Shown: piece after piece, positions 799 through 5,599 of the stretch
Position numbering within the stretch: position 1 is the stretch's first letter
Layout: the number at the start of each line of letters is the position of its first letter
Virus record (IMG/VR): IMGVR_UViG_3300025168_000710
Span: 1-23,089 of that record
Length of the DNA: 23,089 bases
Origin: a virus
Strand: one strand, 5' to 3'
Made by a program: the position numbers and the translations under genes
The notes under the pieces: generated by a model
What the model was told of the DNA's origin: nothing
Database searches by the model: none
What the model saw: the letters and a program-made list of their open reading frames with translations, nothing else

Positions 799-812
799 GT
801 ATCTTATGATAC
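799..812 (-). promoter_or_regulatory. 5' hairpin released by ribozyme cleavage
   Basis: On the minus strand GTATC (812-808), loop ATAA (807-804) and GATAC (803-799) form a perfect 5-bp hairpin one base inside the predicted cleavage product. Its left arm is also the 3' strand of ribozyme stem I, so the two structures compete. After cleavage the hairpin would cap the 5'-hydroxyl end of the mRNA for the gene at 781. Confidence 0.65.
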
Positions 813-859
813 TGACTACCTTTCGGTAGTTTCGTCCCATTAGGACTCATCAGAGTATC
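808..859 (-). ncRNA. Type I hammerhead ribozyme
   Basis: All core elements of the hammerhead fold are present in order on the minus strand. Stem I is GATACT (859-854) with AGTATC (813-808), 6 bp. Core CTGATGA is 853-847. Stem II is GTCC (846-843) with GGAC (837-834) and loop TAATG. Core GAA is 833-831. Stem III is ACTACC (830-825) with GGTAGT (820-815), capped by a GAAA tetraloop. C814 is the residue 5' of the cleavage site, so cleavage is expected between 814 and 813. Strands enter through stem I, which makes it type I. It lies between the stop at 869 and the start at 781. A loop-loop tertiary contact is not obvious, so the rate cannot be judged. Confidence 0.93.
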
Positions 860-1219: not shown

Positions 1220-1294
1220 TGTGTGTGTTTTAAATTGTAGGAATCAATCATTGACTCCCTCTACTACGAAAACCTCGCATATCTCTATGCAAGG
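1220..1294 (-). promoter_or_regulatory. Two-hairpin leader RNA element, copy A
   Basis: In minus-strand order: hairpin 1 CCTTGCATA (1294-1286), loop GAGA, TATGCGAGG (1281-1273), nine pairs with one wobble. Then linker TTTTCGTA (1272-1265). Then hairpin 2, GTA plus a GAG bulge plus GGAGTCA (1264-1252), pairing with TGATTCC and TAC (1243-1237). Then the leader AATTTAAAACACACACA up to the ATG at 1219. Compared with copies B and C the stem bases change in pairs while the linker and leader stay fixed, so the RNA fold is what is conserved. Confidence 0.85.
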
Positions 1295-1314
1295 CAATCA
1301 GTAGTGATTAGTTT

Positions 1315-1740
1315 CTATCCGTATATCTCATTAGGCATATTGTCCCAATCAGGTCTTTGCATTAGTTTATCTCTTTTAAGACATACCTTAACAAACTCCC
1401 AACATTGCTTAAGATTAGGTAAGATATCTTCCCATTCTCCCTCTTCTACATCCATCTCCGCTCCTTTCATTTGATAGTACATTGTATCATTATAATCTCC
1501 TCCACTTTGATTATGGAATGCATCGCAAATATTCTCATATAACTGCATACACTTTTCCATTGTCTCATCTACTATGTACTCAGATGACCATTCTTTAACT
1601 TGATTATTAGATACCTCTACATCTATTGTATCAGATAGATTGTCATTCCATACTGCTAAGTATACCTTGTTATCATAGACTCTTGCATCCATTCCGTACT
1701 TACTTTTAAGTACTTCTACTGCTTTGTTTACTGCTTTCAT
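1315..1740 (-). CDS. Acidic hypothetical protein, early operon
   Basis: This encodes 141 residues and is the largest gene of the leftward operon. It is acidic, tryptophan-rich (Trp in VWNDN, EWSSE, EGEWED, QCWEF, PDWDN) and has four cysteines spread through the second half. The N-terminus (KAVNKAVEVLKSKYGMDARVYDNKVYLAV) looks like a helix followed by beta strands. No membrane segment or known motif is seen. The start at 1740 is fixed by the ACACACA leader and RNA element B directly upstream. The role is unknown; small acidic early phage proteins often bind host enzymes, which is only a general prior. Confidence 0.75.
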   Translation of the reverse strand: MKAVNKAVEVLKSKYGMDARVYDNKVYLAVWNDNLSDTIDVEVSNNQVKEWSSEYIVDETMEKCMQLYENICDAFHNQSGGDYNDTMYYQMKGAEMDVEEGEWEDILPNLKQCWEFVKVCLKRDKLMQRPDWDNMPNEIYG

Positions 1741-1810
1741 TGTGTGTGTTTTAAATTGTAAGAAACAATATGTCTCCTACTACGAAAACCTCGCTATTTT
1801 CATAGCAAGG
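1741..1810 (-). promoter_or_regulatory. Two-hairpin leader RNA element, copy B
   Basis: Minus-strand order: hairpin 1 CCTTGCTAT (1810-1802), loop GAAA, ATAGCGAGG (1797-1789). Linker TTTTCGTA (1788-1781). Hairpin 2 GTAGGAGACA (1780-1771), loop TAT, TGTTTCTTAC (1767-1758), ten pairs with two G-U wobbles. Leader AATTTAAAACACACACA, then the ATG at 1740. The three outer-loop pairs of hairpin 1 are reversed relative to copy A (TAT/ATA instead of ATA/TAT), which is compensatory change. Confidence 0.87.
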
Positions 1811-1829
1811 CAATCTGATTAGGATTAGG

Positions 1830-1994
1830 TTAGTCAAAATCTTTACTTGGTATATTACCAAAAACTCTCTCCTCTTGTAGTTTTTTCAAAATACTTATAA
1901 TATTTTGTTGAGTCTTCCCTTTAAAATTTTCTACATCTAAACTTAATATATAAGCTATTACTTCCTTTTCTTGTTTGTTAAAATTAGTTTTCAT
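1830..1994 (-). CDS. 54-residue hypothetical protein, early operon
   Basis: I place the start at 1994 (MKTNFNKQEK), nine codons inside the longest frame, because this ATG is preceded by the same ACACACA leader as its neighbours and the extra codons would be made of that leader. The protein is short, helical and basic/hydrophobic (EVIAYILSLDVENF, NIISILKKLQEERVF). It may be a small DNA- or protein-binding helix bundle, but no family is recognised. It lies between RNA elements B and C. Confidence 0.65.
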   Translation of the reverse strand: MKTNFNKQEKEVIAYILSLDVENFKGKTQQNIISILKKLQEERVFGNIPSKDFD

Positions 1995-2064
1995 TGTGTG
2001 TGTTTTAAATGTAGGAAACACTATTGTCTCCTACTGCGAAAACCCCACTATTTTCATAGTGAGG
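1995..2064 (-). promoter_or_regulatory. Two-hairpin leader RNA element, copy C
   Basis: Minus-strand order: hairpin 1 CCTCACTAT (2064-2056), loop GAAA, ATAGTGGGG (2051-2043). Linker TTTTCGCA (2042-2035). Hairpin 2 GTAGGAGACA (2034-2025), loop ATAG, TGTTTCCTAC (2020-2011), ten pairs with one wobble. Leader ATTTAAAACACACACA, then the ATG at 1994. Relative to copies A and B a G-C pair of hairpin 1 has become A-T with both partners changed. Confidence 0.87.
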
Positions 2065-2085
2065 TGTCGTTCTGGAGAGAGGTTT

Positions 2086-2326: not shown

Positions 2327-2334
2327 CAAATCTA
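2327..2334 (-). promoter_or_regulatory. Bacteroidota-type -7 box for the leftward operon
   Basis: The minus strand reads TAGATTTG, matching TAnnTTTG, followed by an A/T-rich leader of roughly 40 bases to the ATG at 2283. No TTG -33 element is visible at the normal distance, so it may be weak or activator-dependent. It is the only such box found upstream of this operon. Confidence 0.55.
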
Positions 2335-3245: not shown

Positions 3246-3277
3246 AGAGGTTAGACTACGGTCTGCCTCTTTTTTTT
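3246..3277 (+). terminator. Rho-independent terminator
   Basis: AGAGG (3246-3250) pairs with CCTCT (3266-3270), and inside it AGAC pairs with GTCT around a short TACG loop. The stem runs directly into eight T. This closes the two-gene unit at 2815-3221 and isolates it from the chaperonin operon. Confidence 0.85.
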
Positions 3278-3282
3278 ATATA

Positions 3283-3478
3283 TATGACAAGAGTCGTCAT
3301 AGTTATGACGATATAAAACAAAGTCGTCATAGACTTAACTTACTGATTTATAATATATTATATTCTTTTTATGACGAGATGACAAGTTTAAAGTATATTT
3401 TATACTATAAATATATAAAGAAGAATAGTAAATATATATATATAAGTATTGAAAAGAAAAATTCATCATGTTGTCATA
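3283..3478. repeat. Seven TATGACRA sites, operator-like cluster
   Basis: TATGACAA or TATGACGA occurs in both orientations at 3283-3290, 3294-3301 (inverted), 3304-3311, 3324-3331 (inverted), 3370-3377, 3379-3385 (without the first T) and 3471-3478 (inverted). Sites 3294-3301 and 3304-3311 form a perfect 8-bp palindrome with a 2-base spacer. The last site supplies the only TTG near a -33 position for the groEL promoter. This is the layout of a multi-site operator, or less likely of replication iterons. The rest of the 3278-3537 gap is A/T-rich and holds no gene. Confidence 0.65.
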
Positions 3479-3537: not shown

Positions 3538-5121
3538 ATGCAAGAACAATCTGGGTACATTCCAAAAGACCTATCTTTTAATGAGGAGGCAAGAGAAAAG
3601 CTAATATCGGGAATCTCTAAAATATCTAATGCAGTTAAGTCAACACTGGGCCCACAGGGCCAGACTGTATTGATAGAATCATCAAACCATACACAAGGAT
3701 TAACAGTAACTAAGGATGGTGTTACTGTAGCTAAGAGTATATTTCTTATTGATCCTATAGAGAACTTAGCGGTTAGGATGATGAAGCAGGCTTCTGAGAA
3801 GACAGCTAATACTGCGGGAGATGGTACAACTACAGCTATTGTCTTAACGGAGGCTTTAGTTAAGGCAGGTCAAAAATATATTAAGGATAGTGATAATACG
3901 ATACAGGTCGTTAGAGATATTAGAGCTGCAGGAGATATTCTTTTAGAAAAAATTAAATCAGAGTCTATTGATGTAACTGATGACATGTTAAAAGACATTG
4001 CTACAATCTCTGCAAACAATGACAGCGAGATCGGTGAGATTATTGCTAAGGCTTACAATGAGGTTGGTAAGGATGGTATAGTAACAGTTGAGCGTTCTCA
4101 AACTGACGAGACATATGCTGAGGTTACTAATGGTATAAAGATAGATAGAGGTTGGACATCTCCAATGTTTATTAATGATCAAAGAAAAGATGAGTGTATA
4201 TATGAGGGAGTAAAGGTCTTGATATGCGATACTGAGATCAGTAACATACTTCAGATTGAAAATATCCTGAAGCCAATTATTAATTCTGCAGACAAGTTAC
4301 TTATAATTGGAGACTGCTCACAGAATGTTATTAATACTATGGCCGCTAATGTACAGCGTAATGGATTAAAGTTCTGTAATATTAAACCACCATCATTTGG
4401 ATATAAGACTCACGAGTTAATGCAGGATATTGCATTCTCAGTTGGAGCTAAATACTTTTCTGAAAAGACTGGAGATGATTTATCTTTAATAACTACAGAG
4501 GACTTAGGTTATGCTGATAAGGTTATTGTTGGTAAAGACTCTACTATCATTATGAAAAACGGAGAGATCAGTAAAGAAACACTTGATAGGGTTGCAGAAC
4601 TTAAGGACCAGCAAGAAAGATTAACTGCAAAACATGAGAAAGACTTTATTAACGAAAGGATAGCCTCATTAGTTGGGGGGATTGGTTGTATCTATGTAGG
4701 TGCTACATCGGACATAGAGCAAAAAGAAAAATTCGACAGAGTCGATGACTCTGTCTGTGCAGTGCGTTCCGCACTACAGGAGGGAATAGTAGCAGGTGGA
4801 GGATTGTTATTAGATACTTTATCTAAGAAATTAAAAGGAAAGACTGTAGTAGATAAGATTCTTAAAGAAACATTACAAGCACCTCTACAACAAATTCTTT
4901 TAAATGCAGGGTTAGATGCTTGTAGAATATATACAAAGCCATTAAAAAAGAATGAAGGATATAATGTTGTTACTGGTGAATACGGTGATATGTTTGAGAT
5001 GGGTGTTATTGATCCAGCTAAAGTTACATCACAAGCCTTGTCTAATGCTATTAGTGTGGCAACCACCATACTTACTACTAATGCTATAATTACTCACGCA
5101 AGAGCTCCGCAAGATGATTAG
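3538..5121 (+). CDS. groEL: Phage-encoded group I chaperonin GroEL
   Basis: This is 527 residues, near the usual group I length of about 540. It is an ATP-driven folding chamber, here presumably for phage virion proteins. The equatorial signature is intact: STLGPQGQ (35-42), TKDGVTVAKSI (58-68), the ATPase motif AGDGTTTA with Asp95, and near the C-terminus the hinge/catalytic block DRVDDSVCAVRSALQEG followed by GIVAGGG. The intermediate block ISANNDSEIGEIIAKAY is also typical. The apical domain is divergent, and the Gly-Gly-Met tail of bacterial GroEL is missing (ends in RAPQDD). It heads an operon with groES, behind a strong promoter. Phage GroELs are known but uncommon. Function is near certain; substrates are inferred. 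Confidence 0.97.
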   Translation: MQEQSGYIPKDLSFNEEAREKLISGISKISNAVKSTLGPQGQTVLIESSNHTQGLTVTKDGVTVAKSIFLIDPIENLAVRMMKQASEKTANTAGDGTTTAIVLTEALVKAGQKYIKDSDNTIQVVRDIRAAGDILLEKIKSESIDVTDDMLKDIATISANNDSEIGEIIAKAYNEVGKDGIVTVERSQTDETYAEVTNGIKIDRGWTSPMFINDQRKDECIYEGVKVLICDTEISNILQIENILKPIINSADKLLIIGDCSQNVINTMAANVQRNGLKFCNIKPPSFGYKTHELMQDIAFSVGAKYFSEKTGDDLSLITTEDLGYADKVIVGKDSTIIMKNGEISKETLDRVAELKDQQERLTAKHEKDFINERIASLVGGIGCIYVGATSDIEQKEKFDRVDDSVCAVRSALQEGIVAGGGLLLDTLSKKLKGKTVVDKILKETLQAPLQQILLNAGLDACRIYTKPLKKNEGYNVVTGEYGDMFEMGVIDPAKVTSQALSNAISVATTILTTNAIITHARAPQDD

Positions 5122-5341: not shown

Positions 5342-5599
5342 ATGAAACCAATAGGGAAATACATAGTAATAAAAAAGATTGAGGAAGAATTAAAAACAGA
5401 ATCAGGTCTTCTTCTTTCTGCTCAGGACGCTTCTGCCTTTAGATATAAAAAGGCGGAGGTAATTAAAGAAGGAACTAATGTTGATGTCATAAAGAAAGGA
5501 GATGTAATTTATTATGACGGTGCAACTGGACATCAAATGCTTATAAATGATAATCCATATACGATTATTCAGGAGCGAGATGTCGTTGTTGTTTTATAA
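5342..5599 (+). CDS. groES: Phage co-chaperonin GroES
   Basis: This is 85 residues, slightly shorter than the usual 95-97. It matches the Cpn10 fold: an N-terminal strand (KYIVIKKIEEE), a mobile-loop region at about 15-32 with the hydrophobic GLLL element that docks on GroEL, a middle strand (KKAEVIKEG), the KKGDVIYYDG turn (51-60) and a final strand pair (YTIIQERDVVVVL). It caps the GroEL chamber. Lying in the same operon as the phage groEL, it is presumably its dedicated partner. Its 3' end overlaps the oppositely oriented gene at 5565-6038 by 35 bases. Confidence 0.93.
   Translation: MKPIGKYIVIKKIEEELKTESGLLLSAQDASAFRYKKAEVIKEGTNVDVIKKGDVIYYDGATGHQMLINDNPYTIIQERDVVVVL

Follow-up and report, generated by a model that had tools for sequence, protein, structure and literature searches.

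The window, by which we mean the whole stretch of DNA analysed, is a record of viral DNA, 23,089 bases long, in which TerL, portal and GroEL genes match PHROG families. The closest named records are an uncultured podovirus of 60.9 kb (72% TerL identity), Flavobacterium phages of the elemo group, Maribacter phage Panino and Cellulophaga phages, which identifies the window as a relative of Flavobacteriia podoviruses whose genomes measure about 60 kb. The late genes are oriented rightward, and the early genes leftward from about position 2283. The first early gene (ATG at 2283) is preceded, at a distance of about 45 nt, by a match to TAnnTTTG, the −7 motif of Bacteroidota; a −33 motif is not clear in the window, but relatives have TTG-N17-23-TAnnTTTG at the same place. 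In about half of 28 genomes, a host-type promoter motif occurs at the operon head, near 3.2–3.7 kb after the start of the wHTH gene. Elsewhere in the window, a phage-encoded GroEL (3538–5121) and a GroES-like protein (5342–5599) are found, and inverted and direct repeats around CGTCATAACTATGACG / ATGACGAC, possibly operators, lie upstream of groEL (3263–3390). The block TAGATGTCTGGGGGTTGAGGGTTATTATA (minus strand, 2750–2790) between the divergent operons looks conserved in L102, L107, L112 and L116, and is possibly a late promoter or an origin element.

The early boundaries carry the features listed here, with bit scores referring to R1, a covariance model built from 17 copies of the element (those of the window and of relatives).

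2327–2334, minus strand: TAGATTTG, the match to the −7 motif, read from the sequence
2028–2075, minus strand: element copy 1, hairpin 1 and linker TTTTCGCAGTAG; R1 48.6 bits, fold z −6.3
2065–2042, minus strand: upper stem of hairpin 1, copy 1, with GAAA loop
2011–2034, minus strand: element copy 1, hairpin 2, GTAGGAGACA / TGTTTCCTAC; followed by the leader and the ATG of a 54-aa ORF (1994–1830)
1774–1821, minus strand: element copy 2, hairpin 1 and linker TTTTCGTAGTAG; R1 54.2 bits, fold z −6.2
1811–1788, minus strand: upper stem of hairpin 1, copy 2, with GAAA loop
1758–1780, minus strand: element copy 2, hairpin 2, GTAGGAGACA / TGTTTCTTAC; followed by the leader and the ATG of a 141-aa ORF (1740–1315)
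1258–1305, minus strand: element copy 3, hairpin 1; R1 51.8 bits, fold z −6.1, and sequence
1295–1272, minus strand: upper stem of hairpin 1, copy 3, with GAGA loop
1304–1298 with 1269–1264, minus strand: lower stem of hairpin 1, copy 3, CTAC.GA / TC.GTAG, with U-rich internal loop
1240–1258, minus strand: element copy 3, hairpin 2, GGAGTCAA / TTGATTCC, from sequence and fold
1220–1236, minus strand: A-rich leader of copy 3, AATTTAAAACACACACA, followed by the ATG of a 116-aa ORF (1219–869)
808–859, minus strand: predicted hammerhead ribozyme with open stem I at the fourth early boundary; core CUGAUGA..GAAA..GUC and three stems
799–812, minus strand: possible post-cleavage 5′ hairpin GTATC-ATAA-GATAC, in which the stem I strand GTATC re-pairs with the downstream GATAC

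The original prediction described three minus-strand copies of a two-hairpin element at 1220–1294, 1741–1810 and 1995–2064, and both the positions and the shared plan are borne out by sequence and folding. The minimum free energies have z-scores of −6.1, −6.2 and −6.3, and none of 200 shuffles was equally stable. The predicted GNRA loops are present (GAGA, GAAA and GAAA), as are the stem exchanges of ATA/TAT to TAT/ATA and of G–C to A–U, and the linker TTTTCGYA(GTAG). Hairpin 1 exists as described but has 10 bp, not 9, and is usually stacked on a lower stem with a U-rich internal loop in between; hairpin 2, given as 10 bp, is likewise present, with 8–9 bp and a bulge in the copy at 1220. Each copy precedes an ORF of the leftward gene set, and the three are alike, with 82% mean column identity. 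The A-rich leader AAAACACACACA had been counted as part of the plan. It is present, but is common to five early start codons, two of which, those of the first gene (leader at 2284–2298) and of the hammerhead-led gene (782–794), have no element. The leader is therefore a feature separate from the element, and probably a translational one; its motif has 7 matches where 0.66 are expected.

A covariance-model search, as suggested originally, yielded 76 distinct copies spread over dozens of viral contigs, and compensatory change among them is strong. The core of the element is a hairpin of 9–10 bp with the base CCUC/GGGG, in which the third pair is a U–G wobble conserved in 58 of 76 copies, followed by UUU[G/C]GUGGUA. 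This strand, nearly invariant in the 76-copy alignment and with six of its ten letters mostly unpaired, usually pairs back to form the short lower stem, and a second hairpin is often present between the core and the A-rich leader and start codon. The upper stem has 95.6% paired cells, and five pairs are changed on both sides. In the same alignment, which was fitted to the structure, doubly changed cells number 159 as compared with 47 ± 7 in shuffles, and fall to 4–22 when the partners are slid; the covariation score is 0.51 against 0.21 in shuffles. On a MAFFT alignment of 17 sequences (A3) the score is 0.525 against 0.20. The lower stem averages 6.9 against 5.8 in 300 shuffles (maximum 6.4), but is weak or absent in some distant copies, and a further outer stem, AAUUGUGUG/CACACAAUU, is found in several. 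Unpaired substitutions in both stems, which the original prediction named as evidence against it, were not what the relatives displayed: hairpin 1 stays paired, whereas hairpin 2 is variable and missing in some. The dozens of distinct covarying copies thus support the claim of selection on RNA structure, and the observation as a whole is confirmed.

Further copies came from motif scans of viral contigs, and since part of the set was fetched by the motif GGGGTTTTGGTGGTA, motif conservation is biased in that part. In 28 genomes not selected by motif, the element-positive ones have 25 early-strand occurrences of TTT[GC]GTGGTA, and the negative ones a single occurrence. The core-motif scan pointed to at least 120 viral stretches, with the structure kept in most of those fetched; many distant carriers have no TerL relative in the record, and several are fragments. 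R1 matches at E < 0.003 in the first 100 sources, a redundant set with overlapping loci, all lie on the early strand (62 of 62). Among bacterial genomes, 68 stretches hold the exact motif and only 5 contigs keep the structure, so that most of these are chance occurrences and the element is essentially viral. Element-like copies are seen in Mucilaginibacter genome contigs (L482 at 4174–4220 and 4557–4603; L515; L532), perhaps prophages. The pattern TTTTCGYAGTAG-N-AAAACACA was also sought in viral contigs, and gave only a near-identical contig and chance matches. Cultured relatives, i.e., phages of Cellulophaga, Flavobacterium, Maribacter and Tenacibaculum, have no copy at E 0.001, and published infections of these isolates are for that reason not usable. 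As had been stated at the outset, no known class is recognised: the element has no match in Rfam 15, even at permissive E-values. No Rfam ribozyme matched the window copies or L121 up to E 10, and none was found on four further loci. The literature searched contains no account of the element.

At the fourth boundary, overlooked in the original prediction, the segment 808–859 (minus strand) is a hammerhead ribozyme, as judged from its sequence. It has CTGATGA, GAAA and GUC with stems of 6, 5 and 5 bp, and this core with three stems recurs in relatives. Self-cleavage is predicted between C814 and A813, which would place the cut about 32 nt ahead of the start codon at 781. The match to Rfam RF00163 (25.2 bits, E 0.0047) is under the gathering score of 34, and RF03152 is matched with 28.8 bits; the hammerhead of a relative scores 35.9 bits. 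A structural scan of 80 related loci and the window gave 31 distinct hammerheads, each of them on the early strand; the opposite strand and reversed sequence gave none. The possible re-pairing GTATC-ATAA-GATAC recurs in three relatives, and four hammerhead leaders, with that of the window counted, can re-pair the stem I strand into a 5′ hairpin.

Element and hammerhead share the same part of the genome. Among 28 near-complete related genomes, 16 carry 31 copies of the element and 18 carry 35 hammerheads, with nine carrying both. All of these (31/31 and 35/35) are on the strand opposite TerL, i.e., the early strand, and all sit in a single part of the early operon a few kb long, 3.6–10.7 kb after the start of the wHTH gene. 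The median distance to the start codon is 26 nt for the element and 18 nt for hammerheads. Copy number and gene neighbours of the element vary between phages, and clusters of downstream proteins mix element-led and hammerhead-led genes. The element-led proteins of L174 and L179 are 76% and 72% identical to the hammerhead-led protein of L391 over about 220 aa (76% over 217 aa), and the window gene starting at 1740, led by an element, has 66–68% identity to hammerhead-led genes of L106 and L119 over the N-terminal 57–58 aa. Additional relationships connect L339 with L264 and L391 (49–50% over 126–130 aa), and L179 and L264 with L136 (33% over 257–265 aa). Upstream genes, where callable, have no clear similarity, and the conserved link is therefore to the downstream gene. 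Early-gene boundaries in these marine Bacteroidota-type phages are thus marked by either a hammerhead or the element. A point against a common function is that the alternation might arise simply from both kinds favouring the same gaps. In one gene gap (L100, 19340–19500, minus strand), a hammerhead-like sequence in degenerate form stands in tandem with a copy of the element, a possible snapshot of replacement.

The element represents an uncatalogued and widespread RNA family that probably serves in a familiar way, as intercistronic punctuation of early mRNA in phages, and its relation to hammerheads is unusual and informative. As to what it does, we give about even chances to its being a cis-acting intercistronic processing and 5′-leader element of a host-transcribed early operon that does the job of the hammerheads. 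Among the roles listed in the original prediction, mRNA processing and 5′ protection are favoured because the element alternates with hammerhead ribozymes; a hairpin promoter and small-molecule binding fare worse, as discussed below. Structure, covariation, strand, place and alternation are direct observations, and a possible course of events can be built on them. Host RNA polymerase would transcribe the early genes as a single unit from one host-type promoter, and promoter-proximal boundaries of the transcript would carry a hammerhead or an element, each of which would provide the downstream gene with a 5′ leader that is new, short and A-rich. The site of recognition and cutting within the element would consist of hairpin 1 and the invariant UUU[G/C]GUGGUA strand, and a host enzyme, for which an RNase III-type enzyme is our first guess, might cut endonucleolytically in or beside the UUU loop. 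The released GUGGUA/GUAG strand would then leave the lower stem and join hairpin 2 (or UGGU..ACCA), which may cap the newly made 5′ terminus, upstream of leader and start codon. If both devices cut early mRNA into single-gene units, the role of hammerheads in these phages would be defined, and a second solution, protein- or RNA-catalysed, would be directly testable. The alternation at orthologous genes is in this respect a natural experiment on the purpose of hammerheads in phages, a long-standing open question.

Hammerhead cleavage leaves a 5′-OH. A hairpin is found within the leader in 51 of 73 cases after an element but in 6 of 52 downstream of a hammerhead cleavage site. The greater length of the element leaders explains part of this difference, though 43% of them, as compared with 8% of hammerhead leaders, beat 90% of their shuffles. 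The hairpin-rich element leaders would fit a cut leaving a 5′-phosphate in need of protection. Close to the presumed new 5′ end and followed by an unstructured leader, hairpin 2 resembles ompA-type stabilising stem-loops, with the difference that it would arise by processing and not by transcription start. The early operon of T7, transcribed by host polymerase, has intercistronic hairpins with an internal loop. Relative to these sites, the element has a shorter helix, a strict UUU[G/C]GUGGUA, an attached second hairpin and an alternation with ribozymes, and its cleavage is conjectural. With about 10 bp plus a lower stem of 4–6 bp, weak in some copies, the helix is short for substrates of E. 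coli-type RNase III, for which an extended double-stranded hairpin of about 20 bp or more, or one with an internal loop, would be expected, and conservation of UUU[G/C]GUGGUA is stricter than a site of plain double-stranded RNA would call for. A precedent is T7, whose early RNAs are cleaved by RNase III of the host (Dunn and Studier 1973, as cited in PMC5371410). An RNase III gene was not found in 20 phage records, so that a host enzyme would be required. A comparison of 16 element-positive with 12 negative genomes identified no gene that fits as a partner by co-occurrence, and no consistent trans-acting antisense copy of the conserved 10-mer was found. In haloviruses HF1/HF2, a further precedent, a hammerhead variant stands 13 nt before an early gene and agrees with the mapped 5′ end to within three nucleotides (PMC3088659).

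A fairly unlikely alternative is that the element, as part of the 5′ leader, binds a regulator of phage or host origin, and controls translation or stability without an RNA cut. Sequence conservation in the CCUC/GGGG base with its U–G wobble and in UUU[G/C]GUGGUA, together with a start codon at a median of 26 nt, would suit such a site, but no phage gene co-occurs with the element, and a hammerhead at orthologous genes cannot be a binding site of this sort.

It is unlikely that early polycistronic mRNAs are cut at either a new class of self-cleaving ribozyme or a sequence-specific host endonuclease site, freely exchanged with hammerheads. The first of these, a new ribozyme class standing in place of hammerheads, is by itself quite improbable. 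Association with known ribozymes was once used to seek new classes, and the element both alternates with hammerheads at orthologous genes and has ten nearly invariant letters. It occupies the same early-boundary slot, on the sense strand and tens of nucleotides before the start, as type I hammerheads (RF00163) and RAGATH-1 (RF03152) of phages including HF1/HF2 (PMC3088659), in the same genomes and at orthologous genes, but without a CUGAUGA/GAAA core or a three-way junction it is not a hammerhead. With HDV-like and other small self-cleaving phage ribozymes it has in common that it is a small structured intergenic RNA, but no sequence or structure match exists in Rfam. Copies differ in how long the 5′ side of the internal loop is and in its sequence, and some have pairs there instead (L100 612–661, L168 17484–17531); few conserved unpaired letters are available for an active site, and no pseudoknot is seen.

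We are similarly doubtful that the element acts between early genes as an intrinsic terminator or as an attenuator. The run of GGGG followed by UUUU resembles a terminator, but none of the three window copies passes a scan that demands at least 5 U in 8, as only 3–4 U precede the nearly invariant GUGGUA. At the third pair the stem has a conserved U–G wobble instead of G–C, the U tract is inside a longer stem in many copies, and there is little space before the ATG for another promoter; hammerheads, which occupy these boundaries too, are no terminators.

Very unlikely, in our judgement, is a selfish repeat that spreads among early-gene gaps without a role. The likeness of copies within one phage (82% in the window) and the differences in copy number and neighbours between phages agree with it, but compensatory changes, proximity to start codons and strict strand bias point to selection, and no mobile gene is seen beside the element.

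Hairpin promoters used by a phage RNA polymerase were among the roles originally suggested, and such a promoter, formed in DNA as in N4, is extremely improbable. The hairpin is indeed repeated upstream of early genes on one strand, but the U–G wobble (58/76) corresponds to a C–A mismatch on the template strand, where pairing drops from 87.5% to 70% when conserved G–U pairs count as mismatches, and many relatives have a host-like promoter at the operon head. No T7-type polymerase (PF00940) was found, although control genomes gave no match either. A small-molecule riboswitch is unlikely because copies in one phage precede unrelated genes, from many unrelated downstream clusters, and conservation is strongest in a short linear motif beside a small hairpin, with no multi-helix core.

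One further early operon, that of G045 (L442–L445 and L391; 60323–64631 and 340), holds eight hammerheads and two copies of the element.
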